From NCBI GenBank assembly GCA_022841885.1, contig JALHQP010000002.1, positions 1 through 64,000 on the forward strand: a DNA stretch of 64,000 nt, written 5' to 3'. The position numbers and the translations under genes are program-made. This DNA is from Aquincola sp. Its GTDB lineage: Bacteria > Pseudomonadota > Gammaproteobacteria > Burkholderiales > Burkholderiaceae_C. Of the stretch, positions 30,109 to 59,577 are shown one piece after another; the first letter of the stretch is position 1, and each line of letters opens with the position of its first letter. The notes below the pieces were generated by a model. It was not told where the DNA came from and ran no database searches. It was given only the letters and a program-made list of their open reading frames with translations.

Positions 30109-30336
30109 TCAGCCCGACTTCGTGGTGAACCAGGCGTCGCTCGCCTGGCGCTGCCACTCGGCGAGCTGCTTCTCGGCGTCTTCCTTGGCGATGCCGTAGC
30201 GCTCCTGGAGCTTGCCGGCGAGCTGGTCGCGGCGACCGGCGACGACATCGATGTCGTCGTCGGTCAGCTTGCCCCATTGCGCCTTGGCCCTGCCGGAGAC
30301 CTGCTTCCAGTGGCCTTCAATGCGGTCCCAGTTCAT
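30109..30336 (-). CDS. CsbD-family stress protein
   Basis: 75 residues. Seen: the CsbD signature MNWDRIEGHWKQVSGRAKAQWGKLTDDD and DQLAGKLQERYGIAKEDAE. CsbD-like proteins are small, abundant general-stress proteins of unknown mechanism. It overlaps the end of the BON-domain gene by 4 bp and is the second gene of that pair. Confidence 0.93.
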   Translation of the reverse strand: MNWDRIEGHWKQVSGRAKAQWGKLTDDDIDVVAGRRDQLAGKLQERYGIAKEDAEKQLAEWQRQASDAWFTTKSG

Positions 30337-40565: not shown

Positions 40566-40581
40566 TGTGCGCTGCCGCACG
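40566..40581 (+). promoter_or_regulatory. Crp-like site F
   Basis: TGTGCGCTGCCGCACG, centred 102 bp upstream of the lipoprotein start at 40676. A second, inverted half-match (reverse complement TGTGCGCCAGGGCACG) lies at 40588-40603 and faces the glycine-zipper gene on the other strand. Part of the repeated 16-bp motif described in the findings. Confidence 0.5.
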
Positions 40582-40675
40582 GTGTGACGTGCCCTGGCGC
40601 ACAGACGATCGAACCCGCACTGCCTACCTTCGCCACTTGCTCGCGCCGTCGCGCCGGGCCGATGGGGGATCGCCG

Positions 40676-40882
40676 ATGGATCGCTGGACCGCGTTGTCCG
40701 TGCTGCCCGCCTTGCTCGGCGTGCTGGCCTGTGACGTGCCCGACGCGCCGCCCGCGCCGGCGCAGCTGGACGCAGCGGCGGCAACGATGCGGCCGGCCTC
40801 CGTCAGAGGCGGCGTCGGCGCAGTGCCTACGGCGGCCGCGTCAGCACCCCCGCGCTCGATCTACTCGATCGTCCCCGACTGA
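40676..40882 (+). CDS. Small putative lipoprotein (68 aa)
   Basis: 68 residues from the ATG at 40676, preceded by GGGGG at suitable distance. Seen: short hydrophobic signal with a possible lipobox GVLAC, then an Ala/Pro-rich, otherwise featureless tail ending IYSIVPD. It ends 12 bp before the GGDEF gene and probably leads that operon. An in-frame start at 40472 would add an Arg-rich stretch and cover the Crp-like site, so it is rejected. No family recognised. Confidence 0.5.
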   Translation: MDRWTALSVLPALLGVLACDVPDAPPAPAQLDAAAATMRPASVRGGVGAVPTAAASAPPRSIYSIVPD

Positions 40883-40894
40883 GAGGAGCACGCC

Positions 40895-41926
40895 ATGAGC
40901 CGCTCTATCGAAGGAGTCCCCATGACTGTGAATGCCGAGAGTTTCGATGCCTGGTCGCAGCCCCAGGCGATGGGCCGCGGGGCCGACGTCGTCGACCTGT
41001 TCACGGCCCGCCCGCGTGAGGCGGCCGATCCCTTCGGCTTCGACGACACGGTCCCGCTGTCGCGAGCCGTCCCGCAAGCCCAAGACATCGCGATCGATGA
41101 CTGGAACGTCCTGTGCACCGCCGTCGAGGCGCGCCTCGGCCTGATCGTCGGCGCCCAGCGCATGGAACCCGCTGCCGGTACGGCCGCGGGGCTGCTGCGC
41201 GGCATCCGCGCCGACGTGCTGGAGTGCGTGAAGGCCCTGGCGCAACTGCGCATGGCGCTGACGCCTGAACGTGTGCGCGTGCGGACCCTCGAGCGGGCAC
41301 TGTCGGAGGCCGAGGCCACGCTGGTGACGCTTCGCGCCGAGCTCGCGGGCACCCGCGCGGCCGAGCGCCAGGCCTCGCATCGGGCCTTGCACGACAGCCT
41401 GACCTCGCTGCCGAACCGGGCCTGCTTCTGCGCCCGCCTGGAGCAGGCGATCGGCCAAGCCGATCCCACGGACCAGTCGCTGGCGGTGATGTACATCGAC
41501 CTCGACGGCTTCAAGCGCATCAACGACACCCACGGCCATGCGATCGGCGACGAGATGCTGCGCATCGTCGCCGCGCGACTGACGCGCGCGATGCGCGCCG
41601 ACGACCTGGTGGGCAGGCTCGGTGGCGACGAGTTCGTCGCCCTGCTGCCCGTCGTGCCGCCCGGCTTGGGACGCCTGGAACGCCTGGCCCGTGAACTGTC
41701 CGAGATCGTGTCCGAGCCCTTCCAGCTCGGCACGCTGAGTCTGACCGTGCGGCCCAGCATCGGCATCGCCGTCTGGCCCGACGACGGCGCGACGGGCGAG
41801 GTGCTGCTGCGCCATGCCGACGCGGCGATGTACCGCGCCAAGCGCGCGCGCAGCGGACATGCCTTCTTCGATGGCCATGACGGCACCGTCATGGGCCAGG
41901 CCTCTTCGCCGCCGGTGCCGGCATGA
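40895..41926 (+). CDS. Diguanylate cyclase with intact GGDEF and inhibitory site
   Basis: 343 residues, soluble. Seen: an N-terminal helical region with DWNVLCTAVEARLGLIVGAQRM, a coiled-coil linker, then a GGDEF domain (HDSLTSLPNR, MYIDLDGFKRINDTHGH, RLGGDEFVALL near residues 243-247) with an RxxD inhibitory site (RADD) five residues before GGDEF. It should make c-di-GMP and be product-inhibited. AGGAG precedes the ATG at 40895. A paralogue with degenerate active site is at 53425. It overlaps the next small membrane protein gene by 4 bp. Confidence 0.9.
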   Translation: MSRSIEGVPMTVNAESFDAWSQPQAMGRGADVVDLFTARPREAADPFGFDDTVPLSRAVPQAQDIAIDDWNVLCTAVEARLGLIVGAQRMEPAAGTAAGLLRGIRADVLECVKALAQLRMALTPERVRVRTLERALSEAEATLVTLRAELAGTRAAERQASHRALHDSLTSLPNRACFCARLEQAIGQADPTDQSLAVMYIDLDGFKRINDTHGHAIGDEMLRIVAARLTRAMRADDLVGRLGGDEFVALLPVVPPGLGRLERLARELSEIVSEPFQLGTLSLTVRPSIGIAVWPDDGATGEVLLRHADAAMYRAKRARSGHAFFDGHDGTVMGQASSPPVPA

Positions 41927-42141
41927 GCCTGCTGGCCTTGTCCCTGTCCGTGCTCGCGGTGGCCGCCTCGCTGGCGGTGGCCCTGTGGGCGTGGCACGCG
42001 ATGACGCGGCTGGACGACGACCTGCGGACCTATGCCAGCTTCGAGCTGATGCGCCTGGACATCGCTCCGGGTGCGAATGCCCGACCCGCGCCCTCCAGGC
42101 GCTTCAACGACCCTTCCGACCCACCACAAGGACTCACATGA
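41923..42141 (+). CDS. Small membrane protein coupled to the diguanylate cyclase
   Basis: 72 residues. Seen: one strong N-terminal membrane helix (SLLALSLSVLAVAASLAVAL) and a short polar tail. It overlaps the cyclase stop (ATGA) and the next gene start by 4 bp, so it is genuinely inside the operon. It could anchor or sense for the cyclase (inference). No family recognised. Confidence 0.65.
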   Translation: MSLLALSLSVLAVAASLAVALWAWHAMTRLDDDLRTYASFELMRLDIAPGANARPAPSRRFNDPSDPPQGLT

Positions 42142-42692
42142 ACAAGATCAACACCTTTCACGCCTCGCTCGTCGTCGTCGCCGCGCTGCTGGCCTGGCCG
42201 TTGGCGCAAGCCCAGTCGATGAGCAAGGCCGACTACCAGGCCGGCAAGACCCGCATCGGCGCCGATCTCAAGGCCGACAAGGCGGGCTGCGCGTCGCGCA
42301 GCGACAACGCCAAGGACGTCTGCCTGGCCGAAGCGGCCGGCAAGAAGCGGGTCGCGCTGGCGCAACTGGAGTACGGCTACACCGCCAAGGCGGGCGACCG
42401 GAACAAGCTTCAGACCGCCCGGGCCGAGTCGGCCTACGCGGTGGCCAAGGAGAAGTGCGACGACCAGTCCGGCAACGCCAAGGACGTGTGCGTCAAGGAG
42501 GCCAAGGCCGTCGAGGTCAAGGCCCTGGCCGACGCCAGGATGGGCAAGGAGATCGGCGAGGCCCGCACGGAAGCCGCCAAGGACAAGCGCGACGCCGACT
42601 ACCAGGTGACCATCGAGAAGTGCGGCGCACTGGCGGGCGACGCCAAGGGCAGCTGCATCGACGCGGCCAAGGTCCGCTTCGGCAGGACCTGA
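42138..42692 (+). CDS. Periplasmic cysteine-repeat protein
   Basis: 184 residues with Sec signal peptide (LLAWPLAQAQS). Seen: three internal repeats each with two cysteines about ten residues apart (GCASRSDNAKDVC, KCDDQSGNAKDVC, KCGALAGDAKGSC), Lys/Ala-rich helical spacers between them. I recognise it as a conserved hypothetical of betaproteobacteria without known function; paired cysteines suggest disulfides or metal/redox sensing in the periplasm. A related Cys-pair protein lies at 59578. Confidence 0.8.
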   Translation: MNKINTFHASLVVVAALLAWPLAQAQSMSKADYQAGKTRIGADLKADKAGCASRSDNAKDVCLAEAAGKKRVALAQLEYGYTAKAGDRNKLQTARAESAYAVAKEKCDDQSGNAKDVCVKEAKAVEVKALADARMGKEIGEARTEAAKDKRDADYQVTIEKCGALAGDAKGSCIDAAKVRFGRT

Positions 42693-42714
42693 CGCGGCGG
42701 CGAAGGAGATCACG

Positions 42715-43194
42715 ATGATCGTCGCTGAAATCGAACGGGCTGGGGCGCGCGCGTCACAGCCGCAAGTCCGTGCGATCGCCACTGCGTCGCCGCCCCCCGA
42801 ACCTGGCGTGATGCGACTGACCGCCGTGCGGGACAGGTCAGGGGGCATCGTCGACTTCGTCTGGGTGTCCTGCAACGCGGCCGCAGCACGGCTGATGTAC
42901 TGCGCAGCGAGCGACCTGCCCGGCAGGCACCTGCGCGACGGGGTGGCGGGGCCGCTCGGACACCCGGTGCTGGTCGAGCGCTACCGGCGTGTCATCGAGC
43001 ACGGCAACCCGCAGTCGTTTGCGCAGGTGCACCTGCTGGACGGGACGCAAGACATCGTCGACCACCGCGTGGTGCGCCTTGGCGACGGCGTCATCGTCAC
43101 GCTGACCAACGTCAGCGCGCAGCGGCGTGCGCAAGAGCGCCGCTTGCACAGCCAGGCGGCCACCCGGCGGGTCGCAGGCTGGGCGGCCGCCTGA
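42715..43194 (+). CDS. PAS-domain protein
   Basis: 159 residues, soluble. Seen: one PAS-like fold (DRSGGIVDFVWVSCNAAAARLM, DLPGRHL, ending GVIVTLTNVSAQRRAQERR) with no attached output domain. AAGGAGA precedes the ATG. Last gene of the 40676-43194 run. A lone PAS domain may act as a sensor or adaptor for the diguanylate cyclase or a kinase (inference). Confidence 0.75.
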   Translation: MIVAEIERAGARASQPQVRAIATASPPPEPGVMRLTAVRDRSGGIVDFVWVSCNAAAARLMYCAASDLPGRHLRDGVAGPLGHPVLVERYRRVIEHGNPQSFAQVHLLDGTQDIVDHRVVRLGDGVIVTLTNVSAQRRAQERRLHSQAATRRVAGWAAA

Positions 43195-43239
43195 GTCGCC
43201 CTTGAGGCCAGGCCGGCGGCGGCTGCGGTCGCGACCCGG

Positions 43240-43575
43240 TCAGTCGCCGTGCGCGGTGTCGCCGAGACGCTCCCAGGCGTCGCGCGCGGCCAGGCGGGCG
43301 CGCTCCCAGTCCAGGGTCGACGTGCCCTTGGCCGCGGGCCAGCCGCGCGACAGGTGCGGCTCGATGTCGTCGAACAAGTGGCCTGGGTTCTTGCCATAGG
43401 CCTCGGCCGCATGCAGGTAGGCCGGCTCGTACTGTTCGAAGCGCGACCCGTCGCCCGCGTAGGGGCGCTCCTTGAAGTGCTGGCGCCAGTACGCCAGCTC
43501 GGCGACCGTGTCGACGCCTTGGCCGAGCGGTTCGCCCGCGTAGCCGCCGACGATGGCGCCGATGGTCGCGCCCAT
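43240..43575 (-). CDS. Hypothetical protein with glycine-zipper-like N-terminus
   Basis: 111 residues from an ATG that overlaps the glsB stop by one base (TGATG). Seen: a short MGATIGAIVGGYAGEPLG start, then an acidic, aromatic-rich soluble part (YWRQHFKERPYAGDGSRFEQYEPAY) shared by conserved hypothetical proteins of stress islands in this order. Probably produced by reinitiation after glsB. Function unknown. Confidence 0.75.
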   Translation of the reverse strand: MGATIGAIVGGYAGEPLGQGVDTVAELAYWRQHFKERPYAGDGSRFEQYEPAYLHAAEAYGKNPGHLFDDIEPHLSRGWPAAKGTSTLDWERARLAARDAWERLGDTAHGD

Positions 43576-43844
43576 CAGCGCAGGCTGCCGCGACGCAGCA
43601 GGTTGACCACGGCGAGCAGGAGCGAGGCGCCGAGGAACGAGACGACCAGTCCACCCAGGCTGATGTTGCCCTGGTTGATCGTGGCCACACCCACCAGCGG
43701 CGAGATGAACCAGCCCGCGATCGTCGCGCCGACGATGCCGACCACGACGTTCAGGATGAGGCCCTGCTGCCCGTCGGTGTTCATGAGCAGGCTGGCGAGC
43801 CAGCCGAGGAAGCCGCCGACGACGAGCCAGATGATGATGTTCAT
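43575..43844 (-). CDS. GlsB/YeaQ/YmgE-family membrane stress protein
   Basis: 89 residues. Seen: transglycosylase-associated (Tagg) family pattern NIIIWLVVGGFLGWLASLLM, NVVVGIVGATIAGWFISP and a third helix. GGGAG lies 7 bp before the ATG at 43844. These small inner-membrane proteins rise in general stress. Divergent from the first Crp gene. Confidence 0.92.
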   Translation of the reverse strand: MNIIIWLVVGGFLGWLASLLMNTDGQQGLILNVVVGIVGATIAGWFISPLVGVATINQGNISLGGLVVSFLGASLLLAVVNLLRRGSLR

Positions 43845-44021
43845 GCTTTCTCCCAAGAGATCGACTGTCAGCGGCAGGGATTCGAGGCAGGTTGCGCCGC
43901 TGGAACAACGCACGGTTCAGCCTAAGCACCGCGACGCGGCCGCACCACTCCCGGGCGGCCCGCCCTCGGGCACGACAAGGCGCCATGCGCACGTGGGACA
44001 GCGCCTACGCCGCAAGGTATT

Positions 44022-44037
44022 TGTTCGATAGCGCACA
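44022..44037 (-). promoter_or_regulatory. Crp-like site A
   Basis: Reverse complement reads TGTGCGCTATCGAACA, the best match to the island consensus. Centre is 82 bp upstream of the first Crp gene and 186 bp upstream of glsB on the other strand. Confidence 0.55.
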
Positions 44038-44070
44038 GTGGCCCTTGCGCCCGCTGTCCAAAGGGCCCAG

Positions 44071-44086
44071 CATCGAAGCTTCGATG
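44071..44086. promoter_or_regulatory. 16-bp perfect palindrome upstream of the first Crp gene
   Basis: CATCGAAGCTTCGATG, uninterrupted and fully symmetric, 26 bp before the GTG start used here. Its last three bases are an ATG that is one frame away from the Crp frame. Could be an operator for a different regulator or chance. Confidence 0.35.
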
Positions 44087-44111
44087 ACTGCCTGTCCCGC
44101 GACCGAACCCT

Positions 44112-44849
44112 GTGAGTCCACTGACCTCCGCACCGCCCCCCCCCCCCGCGCGAACGAACCATCTGCTCGCGGCCCTGCCGGAGCCCGAGTGGCAGCGCTG
44201 GAGCACCGAGCTGGAGCCGGTCGTGCTGCCGCTCGGCCAGGTGCTGTACGAGTCCGGCGCCAAGATGGCGTACGTCACCTTCCCGACCACGGCCATCGTC
44301 TCGCTGCTGTACGTGATGGAGGACGGCGGCTCGGCCGAGATCGCCGTCGTCGGCAATGAGGGCATCGTCGGCATCTCGCTGTTCATGGGCGGCGAGTCGA
44401 CGCCCAGCCGCGCGGTGGTGCAGAGCGCCGGCCACGGCTACCGCATGAAGGCGCGCAACATGCTGGACGAGTTCAACCGCGGCGGCCCGGCCATGCACCT
44501 GCTGCTGCGCTACACCCAGGCCCTGATCACGCAGATGGCGCAGACTGCGGTGTGCAACCGCCATCACTCGCTCGACCAGCAGCTGTGCCGCTGGCTGCTG
44601 CTGAGCCTGGACCGCCTGCAGGGCAACGAACTCGTGATGACGCAGGAGCTGATCGCCAACATGCTCGGCGTGCGCCGCGAGGGCGTGACCGAGGGCGCGC
44701 TCAAGCTGCAGAAGGCCGGCCTGATCCGCTACTCGCGCGGCCGCATCTCGGTGCTCGACCGCCCCGGGCTCGAGCAGCGCACCTGCGAGTGCTACGGGGT
44801 GGTCAAGAAGGAATACGACCGCTTGCTGCCCGACAAGCCGGCGACCTGA
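44112..44849 (+). CDS. Crp/Fnr-family transcription regulator 1, with poly-C tract
   Basis: 245 residues from a GTG at 44112 with no clear ribosome site. Seen: a proline run encoded by 12 C, the conserved start NHLLAALPEPEWQRW, a cyclic-nucleotide-like beta-barrel (VLYESGAKMAYVTFPTTAIVSLL), dimer helix, and a Crp-type HTH with MTQELIANMLGVRREGVTEGALKLQKAG. No Cys cluster for an Fe-S centre is visible. The recognition helix (RREGVT) is nearly the same as in the second Crp protein (RRVGVT), so both may bind the same sites. See the poly-C entry for the start problem. Confidence 0.87.
   Translation: MSPLTSAPPPPPARTNHLLAALPEPEWQRWSTELEPVVLPLGQVLYESGAKMAYVTFPTTAIVSLLYVMEDGGSAEIAVVGNEGIVGISLFMGGESTPSRAVVQSAGHGYRMKARNMLDEFNRGGPAMHLLLRYTQALITQMAQTAVCNRHHSLDQQLCRWLLLSLDRLQGNELVMTQELIANMLGVRREGVTEGALKLQKAGLIRYSRGRISVLDRPGLEQRTCECYGVVKKEYDRLLPDKPAT
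44136..44147 (+). repeat. C12 homopolymer in the 5' coding end of Crp gene 1
   Basis: Twelve consecutive C directly after the first eight codons. With one C fewer, the ATG at 44084 would come into frame with the Crp coding region. Homopolymers of this length can slip during replication. Confidence 0.7.
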
Positions 44850-44875
44850 CCGCGCGGTCGATGCGCCGCGCAGTG

Positions 44876-44891
44876 TGTGCGCTGGCACACC
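44876..44891 (+). promoter_or_regulatory. Crp-like site G
   Basis: TGTGCGCTGGCACACC, overlapping the shorter symmetric GTGTGC-GCTG-GCACAC. Centred 52 bp upstream of the second Crp gene. Confidence 0.5.
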
Positions 44892-44935
44892 GACGCGCCG
44901 CAGCGCGGCATCCACAGTGCGGCGCAGACCACCCC

Positions 44936-45628
44936 ATGGCCAGCCCGCAGAACCACCTCATCGAGCGCCTGCCGCGCAAGGACCGCGCGCGCCTGCTCGC
45001 GCTGGCACAACAGGTGCCGCTGGTGATGGGCGAGGTGCTCTGCCGCCCCGGCGAGCCCACGCGCCACGTCTACTTTCCGCTCGACGGCTTCATCTCGCTG
45101 ATCGCGCCGATCGACGCCAAGCCGTCGATCGAGGTCGGCATGGTGGGCTGCGAGGGCATGCTCGGTGTGCAACTGGCGCTCGGCGTGGGAAGGATCCCGC
45201 TGCACGCGCTGGTGCAAGGCCCCGGCAGCGCCTGGCGCATCGGCACCAGCGCCTTCCGCGGCGAGCTGGCCGCCGGCGCGGCCCTGCGCCGGACGCTCGA
45301 CCAGTACGTCTACGTGCTGATGTCCCAGCTCGCGGGCGCGGCGGCCTGCCTGCGCTTCCACGAGATCGGGCCGCGCCTGGCGCGCTGGCTGCTGATGAGC
45401 CAGGACCGCGCGCACGCCGACCGCTTCCACGTCACGCACGAGTTCCTGGCCTACATGCTGGGGGTGCGCCGCGTCGGTGTCACGGCGGCCGCGGGGGCAC
45501 TGCACCGCCTGGGACTCATCGACTACCGCCGCGGCGAACTGACCGTGCTCGACCGCTGCGGCCTCGAAGCCGCCGCCTGTGACTGCTATGCCGACGACCG
45601 CAAGGTCTACGCGGACTTGCTCGGCTGA
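44936..45628 (+). CDS. Crp/Fnr-family transcription regulator 2
   Basis: 230 residues from the ATG at 44936. Seen: beta-barrel sensor domain (CRPGEPTRHVYFPLDGFISLI), dimer helix and HTH with VTHEFLAYMLGVRRVGVTAAAGALHRLG. A sister of the preceding gene, 86 bp downstream of it, with its own Crp-like site in the spacer. No Fe-S cysteine cluster. The sensor pocket departs from true CRP, so the signal may not be cAMP (inference). Confidence 0.9.
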   Translation: MASPQNHLIERLPRKDRARLLALAQQVPLVMGEVLCRPGEPTRHVYFPLDGFISLIAPIDAKPSIEVGMVGCEGMLGVQLALGVGRIPLHALVQGPGSAWRIGTSAFRGELAAGAALRRTLDQYVYVLMSQLAGAAACLRFHEIGPRLARWLLMSQDRAHADRFHVTHEFLAYMLGVRRVGVTAAAGALHRLGLIDYRRGELTVLDRCGLEAAACDCYADDRKVYADLLG

Positions 45629-45667
45629 GCCGGCGGGCGCCGGCGACGCGCGCGTTCGAAGCGGCCC

Positions 45668-47092
45668 ATGACCCGCACCCGCAAGCTCGTGATCTTTGGC
45701 CTGGCGGCACTGGCCGCCGTGGTGGGGCTCGTCGCGGTCGGGCTCGGCCTGCTGCTCGACACCGACGCCCACAAGGCCCGGCTGCAGGCGACAACGTCGC
45801 AGGCGCTGGGCCTGGAAGTCGACATCGCCGGCAGTCTGGCCCTGGATTTCTTTCCCGGACTGACCGTGACGCTGAACGACGTGCGCGTGCGCCGCCGCGA
45901 GGTGGATGTGGTGGTCGCCAGGCAGGCACGCGTCGCCGTCGACATGATGTCGCTGCTGCGCCAGCAGCCGCGCATCGGCAGGATCGAGCTGTCGCAGGCG
46001 ACCATCGTCATCGCGCGCGACCGCAGCGGCCGTTTCAGTTTCGACGACGCCCAGGCCGATGGCCAGGCCCTGCCGGCGCGGGACTGGCCCAGCGTGACGC
46101 TGACCGATGCGGCGATCACCTACGCGGATGAGCGCTTCGGCAGCCGCATCGAGGCCCGCGACTGCCGGGTCGACGTGCAAGGCCTGCGCCACGCGGGCGG
46201 CCCACGCACGGCCCTGGCCAGCGGACTGACGTTCACCGCCGCGCTGGCATGCGGGCAGGTACGCAAGGACCGGTTCAGCGCCGCCGACCTGAAGTTCACG
46301 GCCCATGCCAAGGGCGGCCTCATCGAGCTGAAGCCGTTCACGGCCAGCGTCTTCGGCACGGCGGGCAGCGGGCAGATGCGGGTGGACTTCTCGAAGCCCG
46401 TGCCGGCCTACCGGATCGTCTACACGATGCCGCAGTTCCCTGTCGAGGCGTTCTTCGCGTCGATGGCGATGAAGCCGATGGCCACGGGCCGCATGGACTT
46501 TGCGGCCGACCTGTCCACGCGAGGCAAGAGTCCGAAGGACCTGCGGCAGGGCCTCACGGGCAGACTGTCGTTGCGCGCCAAGGGGCTCATGTTCAACGGC
46601 GGCGACCTGGACCGCGAGTTCAGGCGTTTCGAATCGAGCCAGACCTTCGACCTGGTCGACATCGGTGCCGTGTTCTTTGCCGGGCCGGTCGGCCTGCTCG
46701 TGACCAAGGGCTACGACTTCGCGCGGCTGGGTCGCGGCGCGCCGGGCCGCAGCGAGATCCGCACCCTGGTGTCCGACTGGAAGGTCGAGCAGGGCGTGGC
46801 CCGGGCGCAGGACGTGGCCCTGTCGACCCAGGAGAATCGCCTCGCGCTGCAGGGTGGGCTCGACCTGGTCAACGAGCGCTTCGACGATCTGAGCATTGCG
46901 CTGATCGACGCCAAGGGCTGCGCCAAGGTGCGGCAGCAGATGCGCGGGAGCTTCCAGGCACCGGCGGTCGACAAGCCCAGCGTGCTGGCAGCCCTGACCG
47001 GGCCGGCCCTGCGCCTGCTGAAGAAGGGCAGCGACGCGCTGCGCGGCGAGCCCTGCGAGGTGTTCTACGTGGGATCGGTGGCGGCACTCTGA
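45668..47092 (+). CDS. AsmA-family protein
   Basis: 474 residues. Seen: N-terminal membrane anchor (VIFGLAALAAVVGLVAVGLGLLL), then the AsmA pattern TSQALGLEVDIAGSLALDFFPGLTVTLNDV and RIGRIELSQATIVIARDRSGRFSFDD. Members are periplasmic, beta-rich, inner-membrane-anchored proteins linked to phospholipid transport to the outer membrane. It starts 39 bp after the second Crp gene. Confidence 0.88.
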   Translation: MTRTRKLVIFGLAALAAVVGLVAVGLGLLLDTDAHKARLQATTSQALGLEVDIAGSLALDFFPGLTVTLNDVRVRRREVDVVVARQARVAVDMMSLLRQQPRIGRIELSQATIVIARDRSGRFSFDDAQADGQALPARDWPSVTLTDAAITYADERFGSRIEARDCRVDVQGLRHAGGPRTALASGLTFTAALACGQVRKDRFSAADLKFTAHAKGGLIELKPFTASVFGTAGSGQMRVDFSKPVPAYRIVYTMPQFPVEAFFASMAMKPMATGRMDFAADLSTRGKSPKDLRQGLTGRLSLRAKGLMFNGGDLDREFRRFESSQTFDLVDIGAVFFAGPVGLLVTKGYDFARLGRGAPGRSEIRTLVSDWKVEQGVARAQDVALSTQENRLALQGGLDLVNERFDDLSIALIDAKGCAKVRQQMRGSFQAPAVDKPSVLAALTGPALRLLKKGSDALRGEPCEVFYVGSVAAL

Positions 47093-47117
47093 CGAGGCGG
47101 CGACCGCGGCCGCCTTG

Positions 47118-47133
47118 TGTGCGGCAGCGAACC
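47118..47133 (+). promoter_or_regulatory. Crp-like site H
   Basis: TGTGCGGCAGCGAACC, left and right arms match the consensus except the last base. Centred 78 bp upstream of the CHRD gene. Confidence 0.5.
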
Positions 47134-47203
47134 GACCGCAGACGCAGCCCTGCACAGACTGGGCACCCGTCCCGCAACCCACCGGCACCCCGTGTCCACC
47201 GCC

Positions 47204-47704
47204 ATGATCCGCACCCACTTCGTCTCTCTCGGCGCGCCGCTCGTGGCGCTTCTGGTCCTGGGCGCGTGCGGCATGGCGCCCACGAAGACCGCGGAGCCGA
47301 TGCCGCCCATGGCACCGATGCAGCCAATGGCGATGATGTCCGTGACCAAGTCCGCCACGGCCGCGCTGTCCGGCGCGAGCGAGGTGCCGGCCGTCGTGGG
47401 CAGCGCGAGCGGCGCGGTCGATGCGAAGGTCGACCTGCAGACCCGCGTGCTGACATGGACCATCACCTACTCGGGCCTCACGGGCCCGGCCACGGGGGGC
47501 CACTTCCACGGCCCGGCCATCGCCGGCCAGAACGCCGGGGTGGTGCTGCCGCTGTCGGGCAGCCTGGCCAGCCCGATCACCGGCTCCGCCACGCTGACGG
47601 CCACGCAGATGGCCGACATGCGGGCCGGGAAGTGGTACCTCAACCTGCACACCGCCGCCCACCCCGGCGGCGAGATCCGCGGCCAGCTGTCGGTGCAGCC
47701 GTGA
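47204..47704 (+). CDS. CHRD-domain lipoprotein
   Basis: 166 residues. Seen: signal peptide with lipobox VLGAC, a Met/Pro-rich linker, then a CHRD domain (SGASEVPAVVGSASGAVDAKVD, TGGHFHGPA, HPGGEIRGQL). CHRD domains are extracytoplasmic and of unknown biochemical role in bacteria. An in-frame GTG at 47192 is an alternative start. It leads a probable pair with dodecin 58 bp downstream. Confidence 0.87.
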   Translation: MIRTHFVSLGAPLVALLVLGACGMAPTKTAEPMPPMAPMQPMAMMSVTKSATAALSGASEVPAVVGSASGAVDAKVDLQTRVLTWTITYSGLTGPATGGHFHGPAIAGQNAGVVLPLSGSLASPITGSATLTATQMADMRAGKWYLNLHTAAHPGGEIRGQLSVQP

Positions 47705-47762
47705 CCGTGCGCCCCAACCAACGTCCGCGCCCTGCCGGGCGCCCACACCTCAGGAGCACCTC

Positions 47763-47966
47763 ATGACCGTCGCACGCATCACCGAGATCAGCAGCGTCAG
47801 CAGCGTCAGTTTCCAGGACGCCATCGTCGAGGGCGTGGCGCGCGCCAACAAGACGTTGAAGAACGTCAAGGGCGCCTGGGTCAAGGACCAGGAAGTGACG
47901 ATCGACAACGGCAAGGTGACGGGCTACAAGGTGGTGCTCAAGGTCACCTTCATCCTGCAGGAGTAG
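47763..47966 (+). CDS. Dodecin
   Basis: 67 residues, the whole family length. Seen: VARITEISSVSSVSFQDAIVEGVARANKTLKNVKGAWVKDQ and a closing YKVVLKVTFILQE strand. Dodecins form dodecameric shells that store flavin or CoA. CAGGAG precedes the ATG. Confidence 0.95.
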   Translation: MTVARITEISSVSSVSFQDAIVEGVARANKTLKNVKGAWVKDQEVTIDNGKVTGYKVVLKVTFILQE

Positions 47967-47982
47967 GCCCAGGCCTGCGGTC

Positions 47983-47998
47983 TGTTCGCAGGCGAACA
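47983..47998. promoter_or_regulatory. Crp-like site B
   Basis: TGTTCGCAGGCGAACA, arms TGTTCGC/GCGAACA perfect with a 2-bp centre. It lies 17 bp after the dodecin stop and centred 159 bp before the next gene, so it could be a promoter site or, less likely, a terminator stem without T run. Confidence 0.45.
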
Positions 47999-48072
47999 CC
48001 GTGGCCATGCCGCGCCCGCTTGTAGGCGTCGTCTGTCCTGCGCACGCGGCCCTGGCCGGCAGTGGATGGTGT

Positions 48073-48088
48073 TGTGCGCTGGCAGTCC
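48073..48088 (+). promoter_or_regulatory. Crp-like site C
   Basis: TGTGCGCTGGCAGTCC: left half perfect, right half degenerate. Centred 69 bp upstream of the small gene at 48150. Confidence 0.4.
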
Positions 48089-48149
48089 AAGCCGGGCTTG
48101 GCGCCTAGACTCAAACGAGCACACCCGTGTTGTGTTCCTGGAGTCCATC

Positions 48150-48374
48150 ATGGACGTCACCTTTGCCACCGCGTCGCCGTCGTTCGAGGTCCGGTTCGAT
48201 TCGCTCTATCAGCCCGGCCACGCGCTGGCGTTTCCCTGCGATGCCGAAGGCCACGTCGACCTGGACGCCTTGAGCGAGCGGGCCCGGACCAACTACCTGT
48301 TTGCCCGCGCGATGGTCGGGCGCGAGAACTCGCTGCCCCATGTCATGACGCATGCTGCGGAGTCGATGGTCTAG
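48150..48374 (+). CDS. Small conserved hypothetical protein (74 aa)
   Basis: 74 residues from an ATG with GGAG 6 bp upstream. Seen: a compact acidic protein with FEVRFDSLYQPGHALAFPCD and LDALSERARTNYLFARAMVGRE, no signal or membrane helix. The pattern looks like a conserved small protein of this order but I know no function. It ends 26 bp before fumC. Confidence 0.7.
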   Translation: MDVTFATASPSFEVRFDSLYQPGHALAFPCDAEGHVDLDALSERARTNYLFARAMVGRENSLPHVMTHAAESMV

Positions 48375-48400
48375 CGCCGCGGCGCGCCACGCCCTGCGCC

Positions 48401-49801
48401 ATGGCCTCGCTGCGTACCGAGTCCGACAGCTTCGGCCCGATCGACGTGCCCGCCGAGGCCCTCTGGGGCGCCCAGACGGCACGCAGCCTGCGCTTCTTCG
48501 CGATCGGCGAGCAGCGCATGCCGCTGCCGCTGATTCACGCCATCGCCTGGGTCAAGTGGGCCGCCGCCGGCGTCAACCACGATTTGGGCCTGCTCGACGC
48601 GGCGAAGGCCGACGCGATCTCCGACGCGGCCGAACGGGTGGCCTCAGGCGAGTTCGACGGCGAGTTCCCGCTCTCGGTATGGCAGACCGGTTCGGGCACG
48701 CAGAGCCACATGAACGTCAACGAGGTGCTGGCGCGCCTGGCGGCGCGCACGCTCGGCGCGCCCGTGCATCCGCACGACGACGTGAACCTGGGCCAGTCGT
48801 CCAACGACGTGTTTCCGACCGCGATGCACCTGGCGCTCGCACTGCAGGCCCGGCAGCGCCTGCTGCCGGCGCTGGCCGAACTGCATGCGGCGCTGGTGGA
48901 CAAGGCCGGTGCGTTCGCGGGCGTGGTGAAGATCGGCCGCACCCATCTGCAGGACGCGACGCCGGTGACGCTGGGCCAGGAGTTCGGCGGCTACGCGGCC
49001 CAGCTCGCGCAGTGCCGCAGCCACATCGACCATGCGCTCGAAGCACTGCACCGGCTGGCCCTCGGTGGCACGGCGGTGGGCACCGGCCTGAACACGCACC
49101 CCGAGTTCGGTGTGCGCGTGGCCGCCGCGCTGGCGCGCCGGCTCGAGTTGCCGCTGGCGCAGGCAGGCAACCTGTTCGCCGCGATGGCCGGGCACGAAGC
49201 CCTGGTCGCGTTTCACGGCAGCCTGAAGGGGCTGGCCATCGCGCTGACCAAGATCGCCAACGACATCCGGCTGATGGCCAGCGGGCCGCGGGCCGGCCTG
49301 GGCGAGCTGCAGTTGCCGCAGAACGAGCCCGGCAGTTCGATCATGCCCGGCAAGGTGAACCCGACCCAGGTCGAGGCGCTGACCATGGTCTGTGCCCAGG
49401 TGATGGGCCATGACGTCGCGATCGGCTTCGCCGCCAGCCAGGGTCAGCTCGAACTCAACGTCTACCAGCCGCTGATGGCGCTCGACAGCCTGGACAGCCT
49501 GCGCCTGCTGGCCGATGCGATGTCGGGCTTCGCACGCCATTGCGTGGTCGGCATCGCGGTCGATGCCGCGCGCGTCGAGGCGTTGCTGCGAGGTTCGCTG
49601 ATGCTCGTCACGGCGCTGGCGCCGCACATTGGCTACGACCGCGCGGCGCAGGTGGCGCGGCACGCCCATGCGCACGGCGTCTCGCTGCGCGAGGCCGCGC
49701 TGGCGCTGGGCGCCGTGAGCGCAGAACAGTTCGACGCCTGGGTCGATGCGCGCGCGATGCTGGGCCCGGTGTCGTCCTACGGCGATCTCGGCGCCCCCTG
49801 A
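48401..49801 (+). CDS. fumC: Class II fumarate hydratase
   Basis: 466 residues, the usual FumC length. Seen: SVWQTGSGTQSHMNVNEVLA, the HPHDDVNLGQSSNDVFPTAMH block, KIGRTHLQDATPVTLGQEF and the signature GSSIMPGKVNP near residue 311. It interconverts fumarate and malate without an oxygen-sensitive Fe-S cluster, so it is the stress-tolerant isoenzyme, fitting this stress island. No good ribosome site precedes the ATG at 48401; translation may be coupled to the small gene upstream. Confidence 0.94.
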   Translation: MASLRTESDSFGPIDVPAEALWGAQTARSLRFFAIGEQRMPLPLIHAIAWVKWAAAGVNHDLGLLDAAKADAISDAAERVASGEFDGEFPLSVWQTGSGTQSHMNVNEVLARLAARTLGAPVHPHDDVNLGQSSNDVFPTAMHLALALQARQRLLPALAELHAALVDKAGAFAGVVKIGRTHLQDATPVTLGQEFGGYAAQLAQCRSHIDHALEALHRLALGGTAVGTGLNTHPEFGVRVAAALARRLELPLAQAGNLFAAMAGHEALVAFHGSLKGLAIALTKIANDIRLMASGPRAGLGELQLPQNEPGSSIMPGKVNPTQVEALTMVCAQVMGHDVAIGFAASQGQLELNVYQPLMALDSLDSLRLLADAMSGFARHCVVGIAVDAARVEALLRGSLMLVTALAPHIGYDRAAQVARHAHAHGVSLREAALALGAVSAEQFDAWVDARAMLGPVSSYGDLGAP

Positions 49802-49853
49802 CAGACCGGCGCGGGCCGCAAGCCCACAGTGACGGCACACCCGCGCTGCTGCC

Positions 49854-50285
49854 GTGTTCCACGCCCACCCCACCGCCCGCCACCCACTGCTGCCTGCCTT
49901 GTGCCGCTGCGTCGGGGTGCTGTCGATGCTGGCAGGCGCAGGCCCGGTGGTGGCCGATGAGGACCCGGGAGCGGCGCCGTTCGAGATCGCCACGGTTCAC
50001 GACCGCTTGCCGAGTCGGCCCGGCGCCCCGGGCACGACGACCGACCCGGGCTGGCGCCTGACCGGCCAGCGGCTGCCGCGCGCCCACGCGACGCCTGTGC
50101 ACGGACCGGGCACCGACGCGGCCGCTGCCGAGGTCGCGACCCGTGTCGGCCTGGAGTGGATGTCCGCCAAGCCGCGCCTGGGGCTGCAGCACGGCAGCGT
50201 CGGCTTGCAGCTCGACTCGGGCTACCGGATGTCGCTGCGCACGCGCCATGGCGGCTTGGCGCTGTACCTGCGCGGCAAATTCTGA
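49854..50285 (+). CDS. Putative exported protein, unknown
   Basis: 143 residues from a GTG. Seen: a hydrophobic N-terminus that could be a signal peptide (VGVLSMLAGAGPVVADED), a disordered Pro/Gly middle, and a conserved-looking C-terminal strand region VGLEWMSAKPRLGLQHGSVG and YRMSLRTRHGGLALYLRGKF. No family recognised. The start is uncertain; ribosome site is weak. Confidence 0.55.
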   Translation: MFHAHPTARHPLLPALCRCVGVLSMLAGAGPVVADEDPGAAPFEIATVHDRLPSRPGAPGTTTDPGWRLTGQRLPRAHATPVHGPGTDAAAAEVATRVGLEWMSAKPRLGLQHGSVGLQLDSGYRMSLRTRHGGLALYLRGKF

Positions 50286-50321
50286 GCCCCGCTGCGAGCG
50301 ACCCGACGATGCCCAGCACTG

Positions 50322-50337
50322 TGTTCGCCAGCGCACC
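50322..50337 (-). promoter_or_regulatory. Crp-like site D
   Basis: Reverse complement GGTGCGCTGGCGAACA. Centred 101 bp upstream of the original start (50431) of the PLD gene. Confidence 0.5.
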
Positions 50338-50430
50338 GACCGCGAGCGCAGCTCCTGTCTACGCTGGCTGCACTCGATGTGCGGCCCGCCCGGGCGCACC
50401 GCTTTCAGTCACCCACATAAAGGATCGGCC

Positions 50431-50478
50431 ATGAACCGCTCATTGGTCCTGCCGCAGCCCGGACACCAGCATCTTTGA
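50431..50478 (+). pseudogene. Frameshifted 5' end of the cardiolipin synthase gene
   Basis: An ATG at 50431 with a good AAAGGA site opens a frame that stops at 50478 after MNRSLVLPQPGHQHL. One frame over, the sequence continues DTSIFDRHLALEEAIVGSPL directly into the synthase. Removing one base in CCCGG near 50459-50462 would join them. Either a real frameshift or a sequencing error. Confidence 0.6.
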
Positions 50479-50536
50479 CCGCCACCTGGCGCTCGAGGAA
50501 GCGATCGTCGGCAGCCCGCTGACCACCGGCAACCGC

Positions 50537-51652
50537 GTGCGCCTGCTGCAGGACGGGCCGGCCACCTACGAGGCGATGTTCGCGGCCATCGCCGCAGCGC
50601 AGGACCACATCAACCTCGAGACCTACATCCTGGACGACGACGAGGTGGGCCAGCGCTTCGCGCAGGTGCTGATCGACAAGCAGAACCAGGGCGTGCAGGT
50701 GCACCTGATCCGCGACAGCGTCGGCACGCTCGGCACGCCGACGGCCTTCTTCGAGCGCCTGGCGGCCAGCGGCATCCGCGTGCTCGAGTTCAACCCCGTC
50801 AACCCGTTGACGGCCGGTCCCGATTGGGCGCTGAACCAGCGCGACCATCGCAAGCTGCTGATCGTCGACGGCCGCACGGCCATCCTCGGCGGCATCAACA
50901 TCAGCAGCGTGTACTCCGGCGGTTCGCGCCAGCTCGCCACGCGAGAGCGTCCCGACGGCCGCGTGGCCTGGCGCGACACCGACCTGCAGCTGCAGGGGCC
51001 GGTGGTGGCCGAACTGCAGAAACTGTTCATCGCCGCGTGGACCGCTCAGAAAGGCCCAACGCTGGCGTCGAAGGACTTCTTCCCACCGCCCGAGCGCGTC
51101 GGCAACGAGGTGGTGCGCGCGATCGGCAGCTCGCCCGAGGAGCCGTTCAGCCTGATCTACGCCACGCTGCTGTCGGCGATCGGCAGCGCCGAGACCAGCG
51201 TGCACCTGACCAACGCCTACTTCGTGCCCGACCCGCAGCTGCTGGCGGCGCTGGAGGCGGCCGCGGCGCGGGGCGTCGACGTCAGGCTGATCCTGCCCAG
51301 CCAGACCGACTCGTGGCTGGTGTTCCACGCCGGGCGCGACCACTACGACCGCCTGCTGCGCGCCGGTGTCAAGATCTTCGAGCGCCGTGGCGTGATCCTG
51401 CACTCCAAGACGGCGTTGATCGACGGCGTGTGGGCGACGGTGGGCTCCACCAACCTCGACTGGCGCAGCTTCCTGCACAACCACGAGCTCAACGCGGTGG
51501 TGCTGGGAACGGACTTCGGCGCCCAGCTGCAGGCCATGTTCGCACGCGACCTGGCGGCGTCCGAAGCGATCACGCTCGAGCGCTGGCGGCGGCGTGGCCC
51601 CGGCCCGCGCCTGAAGGAAGCGTTCGCGCGCGCCTGGGCCTATTGGCTGTGA
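50537..51652 (+). CDS. PLD-superfamily cardiolipin synthase (ClsB-like), 5' end apparently frameshifted
   Basis: 371 residues from the first possible GTG. Seen: two HKD catalytic motifs, HRKLLIVD near residue 104 and HSKTALID near 288, with GGINISSVYSGG and STNLDWRSFLHNHE following each. No membrane helices, as in ClsB. The family joins phosphatidyl groups to form cardiolipin. The GTG has no ribosome site; conserved N-terminal residues (FDRHLALEEAIVGSPLTTGN) lie upstream in frame but without a start, and the natural ATG at 50431 is one base out of frame. Catalytic parts are intact, so activity depends on whether the frameshift is real. Confidence 0.85.
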   Translation: MRLLQDGPATYEAMFAAIAAAQDHINLETYILDDDEVGQRFAQVLIDKQNQGVQVHLIRDSVGTLGTPTAFFERLAASGIRVLEFNPVNPLTAGPDWALNQRDHRKLLIVDGRTAILGGINISSVYSGGSRQLATRERPDGRVAWRDTDLQLQGPVVAELQKLFIAAWTAQKGPTLASKDFFPPPERVGNEVVRAIGSSPEEPFSLIYATLLSAIGSAETSVHLTNAYFVPDPQLLAALEAAAARGVDVRLILPSQTDSWLVFHAGRDHYDRLLRAGVKIFERRGVILHSKTALIDGVWATVGSTNLDWRSFLHNHELNAVVLGTDFGAQLQAMFARDLAASEAITLERWRRRGPGPRLKEAFARAWAYWL

Positions 51653-51837
51653 CGGCTGGCTGTGACGGCTCCGAGCCGGGCCCGGAGCCCGGCCTGCGCG
51701 TAGGTGCGGGACTACGGCCACCGGGGACGCGAACCGACGCCCAAGCCGGCCCTGCGCCGATGGCGAGGGCCGTCGCGTGCGTCGACAGTGGAGGTCCGGC
51801 ACTCGCACCGATTGCCACACCTATCAGAGAGCACCCC

Positions 51838-52293
51838 ATGTCCATCCGCCACCTCGCAGTTGTCTGTTCCGTCTCGGCGCTCGCGCTGGCGACGGCCTGT
51901 TCTTCCAGCCCGCCGCGCAACGAGCGCCACCTCGACGGCAGCGGCGTCGTGAGCAGCGCGACGCAGTACGGCAATGTCAGCCACATCGACATCGTGTCCG
52001 AGTCGGCGCGCACGTCCGGCGGCGGTGCGGTGATCGGTGCGGTGCTCGGCGCCGTGATCGGCAACCAGGTCGGCAGTGGCAGCGGCCGCAGCGCCGCGAC
52101 GGGTGTGGGCATGATCGGCGGCGCGGTCATCGGCAACAGCATCGAGCGGCGCAACAAGCGCGACGGCGAGGTCTATCGCGTCAGCGTGCGTCTGGACAGC
52201 GGGCGCACCGGCCAGTTCGACTACGACAGCATCGACGACCTGCGCGTCGGCGACCGCGTCAAGGTCGAAGACGGCCAGCTGCACCGCGTGTGA
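51838..52293 (+). CDS. Glycine-zipper outer-membrane lipoprotein (SlyB/17-kDa antigen-like)
   Basis: 151 residues. Seen: signal peptide with lipobox ATAC, then a glycine-zipper 2TM segment GGGAVIGAVLGAVIGNQVGSGSG, then a small beta domain YRVSVRLDSGRTGQFDYDSIDDLRVGDRVKV. The family is PhoPQ- or stress-regulated in other bacteria. It ends 2 bp before the esterase-like gene. Confidence 0.88.
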   Translation: MSIRHLAVVCSVSALALATACSSSPPRNERHLDGSGVVSSATQYGNVSHIDIVSESARTSGGGAVIGAVLGAVIGNQVGSGSGRSAATGVGMIGGAVIGNSIERRNKRDGEVYRVSVRLDSGRTGQFDYDSIDDLRVGDRVKVEDGQLHRV

Positions 52294-52295
52294 GC

Positions 52296-53267
52296 ATGCT
52301 GACAGCCCGCGCGGCCCTCGCGAACTTCCAGGGCCTCGAAGGCGGCCGGCCCGGCACATCGCTCGGCCGGTTCGCGGCCTGGGTGCGTGCTGCCCTGCAA
52401 CCCACGCCCATGGTCGTGTTGCGCCAGAAGCTGTACCGCCCGCCAGGTGCCCGCGACCAGGCACGCCCGCTGGTCGTGATGCTGCACGGCTGCAGCCAGG
52501 GGGCGATCGACTTCGCGGCCGCCACGGCCATGAACCAGCGCGCCCGCGAGCAGGGCTACTTCGTGCTCTATCCGGAACAGTCCCGCAACGCCAATGCCTT
52601 GCGCAGCTGGCGCTGGTACGAGCGAGCGCACCAGCAGCGGGGCCGCGGCGAACCGGCGGCCATCGCCGCCATGACGCAGGCCGTGATCCGCAGCCAGGGC
52701 ATCGACGCCAGCCGGGTCTACATCGCCGGCATGGCGGAGGGCGGCGCGATGGCGGCGATCGTGGCGGCGGCCTATCCCGAGATCTTCGCCGCGGTGGGCG
52801 TGCACTCGGGCGTGGCAGGCGGGGCCGCCACCAATGCCGCCGACGCGCGCGGCGTGATGCGCGGCCACATCGCCGCAGCCGCGCGGCCGTCGCTGCCGCC
52901 GGGCGTGCCGACCATCGTGTTCCACGGCGACCAGGACCTGTCGGTGCACCCGCGCCATGGGCGGGCGCTGATCGACGCGTCGCTGGGACAGCCATCCGAC
53001 GACCAGGGGCTGCCGACAGCCGATCTGCCGGCCCGGTTCGTGCGCGTGGTGCAGGGCATCGGCGAGCACGGCCGCCACTTCACGCGCGCCATCCACGAGG
53101 ACGACGCAGGCCATGTGCTGGCCGAGCACTGGCTGGTGCATGGCGCAGGCCACGCCTGGTCGGGCGGGCAAGCCAGGGGATCGTTCGCGGACACCCAGGG
53201 GCCCGATGCCAGCCGCGAGATGCTGCGTTTCTTTTCCGGGCAGCGCCGTTCCGGTGCGGGCCGCTAA
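52296..53267 (+). CDS. PHB-depolymerase-family alpha/beta hydrolase lacking the catalytic serine
   Basis: 323 residues, no signal peptide. Seen: VVMLHGCSQGAIDFA (oxyanion region), the nucleophile elbow as IAGMAEGGAMAA, VFHGDQDLSVHPRH with the acid Asp and HGAGHAWSGG with the catalytic His. Family members read G-[LM]-S-A-G-G at the elbow; here alanine stands at the serine position (Ala147, codon GCG at 52734-52736) and Glu follows. Asp and His are kept. So it is probably not a normal esterase; binding or scaffold function, or an alternative nucleophile, is possible. Confidence 0.85.
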   Translation: MLTARAALANFQGLEGGRPGTSLGRFAAWVRAALQPTPMVVLRQKLYRPPGARDQARPLVVMLHGCSQGAIDFAAATAMNQRAREQGYFVLYPEQSRNANALRSWRWYERAHQQRGRGEPAAIAAMTQAVIRSQGIDASRVYIAGMAEGGAMAAIVAAAYPEIFAAVGVHSGVAGGAATNAADARGVMRGHIAAAARPSLPPGVPTIVFHGDQDLSVHPRHGRALIDASLGQPSDDQGLPTADLPARFVRVVQGIGEHGRHFTRAIHEDDAGHVLAEHWLVHGAGHAWSGGQARGSFADTQGPDASREMLRFFSGQRRSGAGR

Positions 53268-53278
53268 GCGACGTGGTC

Positions 53279-53294
53279 TGTGCGCTGTCGTACA
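53279..53294 (+). promoter_or_regulatory. Crp-like site E
   Basis: TGTGCGCTGTCGTACA, within the longer dyad TCTGTGCG-CTGT-CGTACAGA (53277-53296). Centred 138 bp upstream of the degenerate GGDEF gene. Confidence 0.5.
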
Positions 53295-53424
53295 GACCCA
53301 GCCGCCAGACCGGACTACAAGGGTCAGATGAGAGTTCCGACGTGACCCGATTCGCGCTGTCCCCCGATCCGAGGGCGAGGGCCCGGATGCGGCGCGGCCG
53401 CTGACGGGGCGCGCAACCGCCCCC

Positions 53425-54240
53425 ATGGCCGATCGATCGACGCCCGGTCAGCGCGACGCGCTCGCTCGTGTGACGCAGGAGCTGGCCGACATCCGGCGCC
53501 GCTTCGACGAGGACGACCGCCTTCGCGACGCCGAGTGGGCGTCGACGCATGCGGCTCCCGTGATGGCTGTGGCCGACTGGGAACACCTGCTCAATGCGGT
53601 GAAGTCGAAGCTGTGGCAGGTGGCCGACACCTTGACGGCGGCCGGCAGCGCCTCGCGCCTCAACGGCCAGACCGAGGGTGTGTCGTCCGACCTGCTGGAG
53701 GCCGTGACCGCGCTGGACCGCGTGCATGTCATGCTGGCGCACGAACTCGCGCGCAACAGCTGCCTGGCGGCGCTCGACGATCGGATCGCGCAGGCACCGG
53801 CTGCCGTCGACACGGGGTCATCGCCAGCCGCGCTCGCGCTGCTGCATGTCGACCTGGACGACTTCCGGTCGATCGACGGGGGCCGTGGCCGTGCCGCGGG
53901 CGACGAGGTGCTCGCGATCATTGCCGTCAGACTCAGAGGCGTCATGCGCGTGCAGGACACGGTCCGCCACCTCGGGGGCGATGCACTGGCCTGCGTGCTC
54001 GACGACGGGAGCGACCGCGAACAGCTGTTGCGGCTCGTCAGCAAGCTGGCCGACGCGGTGTCGGCCCCAGTGACCGTGGGGGCGGTTGAAGTGACGGTGC
54101 GGCCGACGATCGGCATCGCCACCAGCCTCGCCGACGGGGCCTCGGCCGAGATCCTGCTGCGACGCGCCGATGCCGCGATGGCGCGAGCCAAGCGGCAGCA
54201 GACCAGCTACGCGTTCTTCGACGCGCGCACCGACGCTTGA
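53425..54240 (+). CDS. Degenerate GGDEF-domain protein with intact inhibitory site
   Basis: 271 residues, soluble. Seen: N-terminal helical part with DWEHLLNAVKSKLWQVADTL, like the active cyclase at 40895, then a GGDEF fold (LHVDLDDFRSIDGG) whose active-site loop reads GGDAL at residues 184-188. The RxxD inhibitory site is kept as RVQD five residues before. Cyclase activity is unlikely; binding of c-di-GMP at the I-site remains possible, making it a candidate receptor (inference). It overlaps the convergent gene by 34 bp. Confidence 0.82.
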   Translation: MADRSTPGQRDALARVTQELADIRRRFDEDDRLRDAEWASTHAAPVMAVADWEHLLNAVKSKLWQVADTLTAAGSASRLNGQTEGVSSDLLEAVTALDRVHVMLAHELARNSCLAALDDRIAQAPAAVDTGSSPAALALLHVDLDDFRSIDGGRGRAAGDEVLAIIAVRLRGVMRVQDTVRHLGGDALACVLDDGSDREQLLRLVSKLADAVSAPVTVGAVEVTVRPTIGIATSLADGASAEILLRRADAAMARAKRQQTSYAFFDARTDA

Positions 54241-59534: not shown

Positions 59535-59577
59535 TCGCGTTGTGCGCCGGCAGACGTGCTGGCGCGGGTGGCGCTGT

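Follow-up and report, generated by a model that had tools for sequence, protein, structure and literature searches.

The first 64,000 nucleotides of contig JALHQP010000002.1 of Aquincola sp. (GCA_022841885.1; G000:C2:1-64000, hereafter the window), which account for 1.6% of the length of a 4.08-Mb assembly of 240 contigs, contain a series of 16-bp palindromes in front of genes that include crp1 and crp2, encoding two regulators of the CRP/FNR family. As judged from comparative sequence analysis, these palindromes are probably the operators of Crp1. This protein, with the recognition helix GVRREGVT, represents an uncharacterised CRP/FNR subfamily and is predicted to function as a class II activator of its own gene, of crp2 and of envelope- and stress-type genes. 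The refined conserved operator spans 22 bp (GTCTGTDCGNTANCGHACAGAC) and would be bound by a Crp1 dimer.

Palindromes in the window and their conservation

A first-pass annotation had aligned eight 16-mers by eye, and all eight are present in the window at the positions and on the strands assigned to them (Table 1). The window was excluded from the training of a 22-bp palindromic matrix (22.5 bits), for which 78 sites were taken from the regions upstream of crp1 in other species (89 regions). With this held-out matrix, seven of the eight sites occupy ranks 1-7 among all window positions (27.1 to 15.2 bits), followed by an additional site at 40588, while the next position reaches 8.4 bits. Compared with TGTKCGNNNNCGMACA, the sites at 44022 and 47983 are exact, those at 40566, 47118, 50322 and 53279 have one mismatch and that at 44876 has two. 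For the full 22-bp operator, the stretch 53276-53297 is the only match with 0 mismatches in the genome. The remaining palindrome, at 48073, cannot be grouped with the others as a symmetric site, as it is absent from the window matches to TGTKCGNNNNCGMACA at up to three mismatches, ranks 40th with 0.2 bits and resembles an asymmetric variant typical of crp2 promoters (see below). The proposed CRP-type frame TGT-N10-ACA with a half-site of its own was borne out by the trained matrix and by half-site counts, which yield TGTDCG and thus neither the TGTGA of cAMP-CRP nor the TTGAT of FNR. Likewise, a copy is located upstream of both crp1 (44022) and crp2 (44876), and both score high with the held-out matrix.

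The sites had been described as entirely intergenic, with centres 52-159 bp before a start. At up to one mismatch, six of the nine window sites are intergenic and three are not, where intergenic is defined by the gene caller of this analysis, residual errors of which blur all intergenic counts given here. The site at 44876 fell inside crp2 by the gene caller, which took an earlier start, and is intergenic if the ATG at 44936 is the true crp2 start. The distances hold roughly, with the exceptions of the PLD gene (207 bp to the called start) and of 40566 (348 bp to the called GGDEF start, or less if a short lipoprotein open reading frame (ORF) in between is counted).

Conservation was surveyed in about 250 nt 5' of crp1 orthologues at >=70% identity, counting identical regions once and leaving out five short ones. 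The palindrome was found at up to one mismatch in 66 of the 90 distinct regions (exact in 25, one mismatch in 41), with two mismatches in 14, with three in 3 and in none of the remaining 7. The species-collection loci comprise the best 80 named loci of a longer list of Crp1 matches, and the half-site counts, target counts, promoter alignment, matrix training and scans, helix survey and density tests exclude the duplicate loci L138 and L147.

That the palindromes arose by chance or from base composition in GC-rich intergenic DNA is extremely improbable. Loose matching, it is true, reveals no clear enrichment, with 190 matches at up to three mismatches in the window, while shuffled versions average 172 and reach this number in 9 of 100 cases, and exact 16-mers are no commoner genome-wide than the control (4 vs 4). 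Given the lack of a clear excess with the loose pattern, conservation was sought and a trained matrix used. The first-order random windows (n=100) contain on average 0.11 positions of at least 15 bits and at most 1, compared with 7 in the real window, and 12 column-permuted matrices applied to 40 loci yielded 0-2 intergenic hits compared with 141 for the real matrix. Together with the held-out ranking, the conservation before crp1 and a preferred distance to the -10 element, these results speak against chance.

The annotation had also raised the case that the motif is equally common inside genes, on which the results are mixed. Around crp1, sites show a strong preference for intergenic DNA: TGT-N10-ACA palindromes in 99 loci were distributed between intergenic and coding DNA as 146/20 (TGTGCG), 76/9 (TGTTCG) and 44/6 (TGTACG), and sites of at least 13 bits as 346 vs 29 (training sites included) or, away from crp genes, as 219 vs 15, a 48-fold difference by density. 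In genome-wide scans, a reversed or control pattern was counted alongside the motif. In the Aquincola sp. genome, the 9 window sites at up to one mismatch are among 106 (reversed-pattern control 59), the 22-mer at up to three mismatches occurs 29 times (control 11), and the 22-mer combined with a -10 element at two mismatches occurs 36 times on both strands (control 14), whereas the exact 16-mers mentioned above show no such excess.

Promoter arrangement and proposed mode of action

In 257 site-to-gene windows aligned on the site centre, a downstream hexamer emerges with T at +29.5, A at +30.5 and T at +34.5. Reading this hexamer as positions -12 to -7 places the transcription start at +41.5 and therefore the site at -41.5. 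TANNNT occurs at the preferred offset in 58 of 257 windows, compared with 6 at the next offset and 1 of 531 decoys, and the relaxed YANNNT in 92, compared with 16 at the next offset and a median of 4. In Escherichia coli, CRP is centred at -41.5 at class II promoters, and the arrangement found here corresponds to that of a putative class II activator, so that Crp1 would activate transcription by contact with RNA polymerase. By the same route it would activate its own gene, resulting in positive feedback, and crp2 as a second tier.

Several observations fit this arrangement poorly. YANNNT is missing from the preferred offset in 165 of the 257 windows, TANNNT occurs in the opposite direction in 28, perhaps because some sites are divergent, and for 63 of 270 intergenic sites the 350 bp downstream contain no called gene start. 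Among 10 window sites, YANNNT stands exactly at the offset in only three (40588, 44876 and 47118); it is displaced by one base at 50322, imperfect at 53279 and absent from the rest. No YANNNT is found near the offset at the crp1 site itself (44022) or at 47983, nor within one base of it in either direction at 40566. The additional site at 40588 is better placed than 40566 for the putative control of the lipoprotein/GGDEF genes because a -10 element lies at the fixed offset from it.

The same operator and protein could also act in repression, with Crp1 covering the -35 region and derepression turning the genes on. The site overlaps the -35 region and, as inferred from the aligned windows, its better conserved downstream flank GAC fits bases 3-5 of a -35 hexamer, both of which a repressor would explain. 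A repressor could do without a fixed phase, but a single offset prevails here (92 vs 16 at the next), and the -35 place appears in the aligned windows to open with C, A rather than TT, as at activator-dependent promoters. Repression is thus considered unlikely.

The reader of the sites and the predicted regulon

Crp1 combines a cNMP-type sensor domain with a subsequent Crp-type helix-turn-helix (HTH), and the fold predicted for it resembles those of CRP and FNR, which places it in the CRP/FNR superfamily. It matches the Pfam model HTH_Crp_2 with 53.4 bits (cut-off 27) and cNMP_binding with 26.2 bits, just below the cut-off of 27.5, and no NCBIfam model was matched at E 0.01. The AlphaFold model (mean predicted local distance difference test 83) is matched, among the hits listed, by CRP and FNR structures that cover most of it at 10-20% identity. 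An alignment of 40 Crp1 sequences, from which the L170 range was left out as it contains a stop, has C148, C159, C225 and C227 as its only invariant cysteines.

The near-identical helices of the two proteins had been taken to point to both as readers. In the helix survey, GVRREGVT of Crp1 is nearly invariant, while Crp2 mostly has GVRRVG(V/I)T, and this change from RRE to RRV is aligned with Glu181 of E. coli CRP, which is one of three base-contacting residues according to PMC12531629. As the Crp2 helix differs at the specificity residue, the helices are not equivalent and binding by both proteins is unsupported; Crp1 appears to be the better candidate.

Of 60 relatives searched at 1e-20, 21 have a Crp1 match; the corresponding figures are 42 of 100 genomes at 1e-40 and 26 of 299 genomes of a phylum-wide sample at 1e-60. 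In the latter, 18 of 32 upstream stretches (one gene counted twice) reach at least 10 bits, including those of 11 of the 21 loci that lie outside the order of the window. In one 2.6-Mb relative (G010), Crp1-like proteins are unusually expanded, with seven matches at 1e-20. The suggested co-occurrence of sites and Crp proteins holds as a tendency, with exceptions both ways. At two mismatches, the 42 genomes with a Crp1 match contain 87 22-mers (control 26) and the 58 genomes without contain 42 (control 25), or 37 vs 25 with G050 left out. Site number is associated with Crp1 presence (one-sided Mann-Whitney test, p 1.1e-6; with the control subtracted, p 1.0e-4; phylogeny not corrected for). Sites are also present in genomes that have only one Crp1-like match (6 vs 0 in G031, 3 vs 0 in G033); therefore Crp2 seems not to be required for their occurrence.

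G050, with 30 exact hits, was rejected as a large regulon without Crp1, since 28 of them recur within 4 kb at spacings that are multiples of 60 bp and form a repeat array. This array (G050:C1:473954-477929) consists of 28 copies of TGTTCGCTGCCGCACA and, judged by its spacing, is probably a CRISPR array.

Further findings weigh against Crp1 as the reader. Seven of the 90 crp1 upstream regions lack a site within three mismatches and 17 have one with two or three mismatches only, and 17 of 21 upstream regions of Crp1-like paralogues (57-68% identity, mostly the same helix) have none or one with three mismatches. Sites occur in genomes without a Crp1 match (G032, 5 vs 0; G074, 3 vs 0) and are missing from some with one, for example G046, G063, G085 and G089. 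Furthermore, nine Crp-type HTH proteins of the Aquincola sp. genome exceed the Pfam cut-off, so the identity of the binder is one we infer. Such a complement, and the sites in some genomes without Crp1, would be accounted for if the actual reader were Crp2, a paralogue or several CRP-family proteins, with crp1 as just one of the targets. This is improbable in view of the fact that site number follows Crp1 presence, that sites are kept in genomes with a single Crp1-like match and that the most frequent target, found at 62 of 83 loci, is the Crp cluster (joining crp1, near paralogues and perhaps crp2). Crp1 thus remains the favoured reader.

Upstream of crp2, the operator takes an asymmetric form. 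A crp2-type matrix with the consensus TGTGCGCTGGCAGACA scores more than 7 bits in 49 of 60 crp2 upstream regions, the weakest of which are symmetric or poor, and in these 49 the site is followed by GTC and, at the same offset as above, by a CAGACT-like -10 element (C 76%, A 86%, T 80%). This shared arrangement makes it probable that crp2 is activated like the targets with symmetric sites. The combination of TGTGCGCTGGCAGACA, GTC and a CAGACT-like -10 element precedes crp2 in many species (for example L058, L111 and L125) as well as at 44876, which ranks first with the crp2-type matrix, though it is among its training sequences. Of 38 asymmetric sites TGTGNGNNNNCAGACN, 26 are close to a crp2 start; among the other 12, some come directly after crp1, where no crp2 was recognised (L124, L158) or the contig ends (L108, L131), and the tie to Crp2 is therefore loose. 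The pair TGTCTG/TGTCTG is not among the 40 commonest half-site pairs listed. A further such sequence of the window, TGTGCGCCGGCAGACG at 59541-59556, scores 21.8 bits with the crp2-type matrix; it is located 64 bp past the end of 58366-59484 and precedes no called gene on its strand. A rather doubtful extension of these results would be that the undescribed subfamily constitutes a self-activating envelope-stress master switch in Burkholderiales and other Pseudomonadota, which fires Crp2, with its changed specificity residue, via TGTGCGCTGGCAGACA, itself possibly read by a Crp1-Crp2 heterodimer.

The sites had been expected in front of small stress-type genes, and the predicted targets are indeed rich in BON, CsbD and OmpA-type proteins relative to random genes. 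The family scan covered 117 proteins from 150 of 215 targets taken by name as non-Crp; 33 were left out by hand, namely long or very short proteins, near-duplicates, suspected shadow ORFs and a Crp gene that had slipped past the name filter, and some shadow ORFs remained, such as L111:9835-10506 (minus), opposite crp1. Matches were to BON (17), CsbD (6), OmpA (6), GGDEF (4), HATPase (4), PRC (3) and glycine zipper (3). In the control of 117 randomly drawn genes that lack a site and are preceded by at least 60 bp, BON, CsbD and OmpA were outside the first 25 families and thus had at most one match each, and 5 genes matched HTH_Crp_2. In other bacteria, BON-, CsbD- and OmpA-type families are linked to stress, and the composition of the targets hints at envelope or osmotic stress as a possible signal. 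Three window genes, at 30109, 55110 and 58366, which we take to be CsbD-like, DUF883-like and glycine-zipper genes, have no position of at least 8.4 bits in front of them with the held-out matrix, and the ORF at 47763-47966 after the CHRD gene presumably encodes a dodecin.

Additional strong sites elsewhere in the genome are located on C90 (23.0, 21.3 and 19.8 bits), at C1:138177 (22.5 bits) and on C113 (15.3 and 13.5 bits). The first three form a second cluster at positions 1875, 4445 and 5065 of L261 (G000:C90:1-8000), and L262 (G000:C113:1-8000) has two sites, at 5941 and 5979, between an 81-aa ORF and a 206-aa ORF, presumably an alternative oxidase.

Table 1. Predicted operators and associated genes in the window (ranks and bits refer to the held-out symmetric matrix unless stated otherwise).
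Feature	Positions	Strand	Remarks
Operator TGTGCGCTGCCGCACG	40566..40581	+	Between glycine-zipper gene (minus) and lipoprotein/GGDEF genes (plus); rank 6, 16.1 bits
Operator CGTGCCCTGGCGCACA	40588..40603	+	22 bp from 40566; -10 TACCTT at 40625-40630, exact offset; rank 8, 11.2 bits
Operator TGTTCGATAGCGCACA	44022..44037	+	Before crp1, divergent from 43575-43844 (minus); rank 2, 23.3 bits
crp1, CRP/FNR-family regulator, helix GVRREGVT	44112..44849	+	HTH_Crp_2 2.6e-14; predicted CRP/FNR fold
Operator TGTGCGCTGGCACACC	44876..44891	+	Before crp2; -10 CACAGT at 44913-44918, exact offset; rank 5, 18.2 bits
crp2, second CRP/FNR regulator, helix GVRRVGVT	44936..45628	+	HTH_Crp_2 6.4e-14 for 44954-45628
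Operator TGTGCGGCAGCGAACC	47118..47133	+	Before CHRD gene; -10 CAGACT at 47155-47160, exact offset; rank 4, 20.7 bits
CHRD-domain protein, predicted target	47204..47704	+	PF07452 4.2e-28
Operator TGTTCGCAGGCGAACA	47983..47998	+	Upstream of small protein/fumC genes; rank 7, 15.2 bits
Doubtful site TGTGCGCTGGCAGTCC	48073..48088	+	Asymmetric crp2-type look; crp2-type matrix rank 7, 16.4 bits
Operator TGTTCGCCAGCGCACC	50322..50337	+	Before PLD-domain gene; TACGCT (50360-50365) one base off -10 offset; rank 3, 21.6 bits
PLD-domain gene, predicted target	50537..51652	+	PF13091 7.2e-45
Operator TGTGCGCTGTCGTACA	53279..53294	+	Inside full 22-bp match 53276-53297; imperfect TACAAG at -10 place; rank 1, 27.1 bits
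GGDEF-domain gene, predicted target	53425..54240	+	PF00990 2.3e-22

Comparison with known regulators

These predictions supply a concrete operator, a promoter architecture and a list of targets for a CRP/FNR subfamily that is common yet has no name, and would connect BON, CsbD, CHRD and glycine-zipper proteins, which are small envelope proteins whose use is unclear, with a single regulator. The asymmetric crp2 promoter furthermore offers a ready case of a Glu-to-Val change in the recognition helix that may alter operator choice. No description of the motif or of such a regulon was met in the literature, coverage of which was partial and partly missed the slash spelling 'Crp/Fnr', and as far as this coverage goes the subfamily appears to be undescribed. 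The computed motifs of CRP/FNR groups reportedly given by Matsui et al. in 2013 could already contain the motif.

Like E. coli CRP, Crp1 has a predicted CRP/FNR fold, and its putative operators have the 22-bp dyad frame TGT...ACA and, at the preferred offset, a centre at -41.5 from the inferred start. In contrast to E. coli CRP, the half-site is TGTDCG instead of TGTGA and the residue aligned with Arg185 is mostly Glu. In cAMP-CRP, a Glu and an Arg of the sensor pocket contact cAMP, while in FNR N-terminal cysteines hold an Fe-S centre. Unlike in GlxR, a relative of CRP, where the Glu of the GEL motif serves cyclic-nucleotide binding, Crp1 has a gap at this position and its invariant Arg100 is out of register, according to a weak profile alignment. 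The Crp1 model resembles FNR of A. fischeri (VIA-align Z 20.0, root-mean-square deviation 3.1, 217 aligned residues), with CRP-type chains within 1 Z, but differs from FNR in that no invariant cysteine precedes residue 148 and the half-site is not TTGAT.

The passages considered from PMC5343134 and PMC8510549 contain nothing on the motif. The nearest described regulators met are RedB and Bcam1349. RedB of Rhodobacter capsulatus represents a widespread, formerly unstudied CRP/FNR subgroup, with a 12-bp, AT-rich, non-palindromic motif and targets in energy metabolism (PMC9603854). Compared by description only, RedB and Crp1 both belong to widespread, little-studied CRP/FNR subgroups, while their motifs and targets differ. 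Bcam1349 of Burkholderia cenocepacia is a CRP/FNR-family regulator tied to cyclic di-GMP, for which the passages considered give no operator sequence (PMC3584217). It and Crp1 are both CRP/FNR proteins of Burkholderiales, and GGDEF genes are among the predicted targets of Crp1, a likeness that is likewise one of description only.

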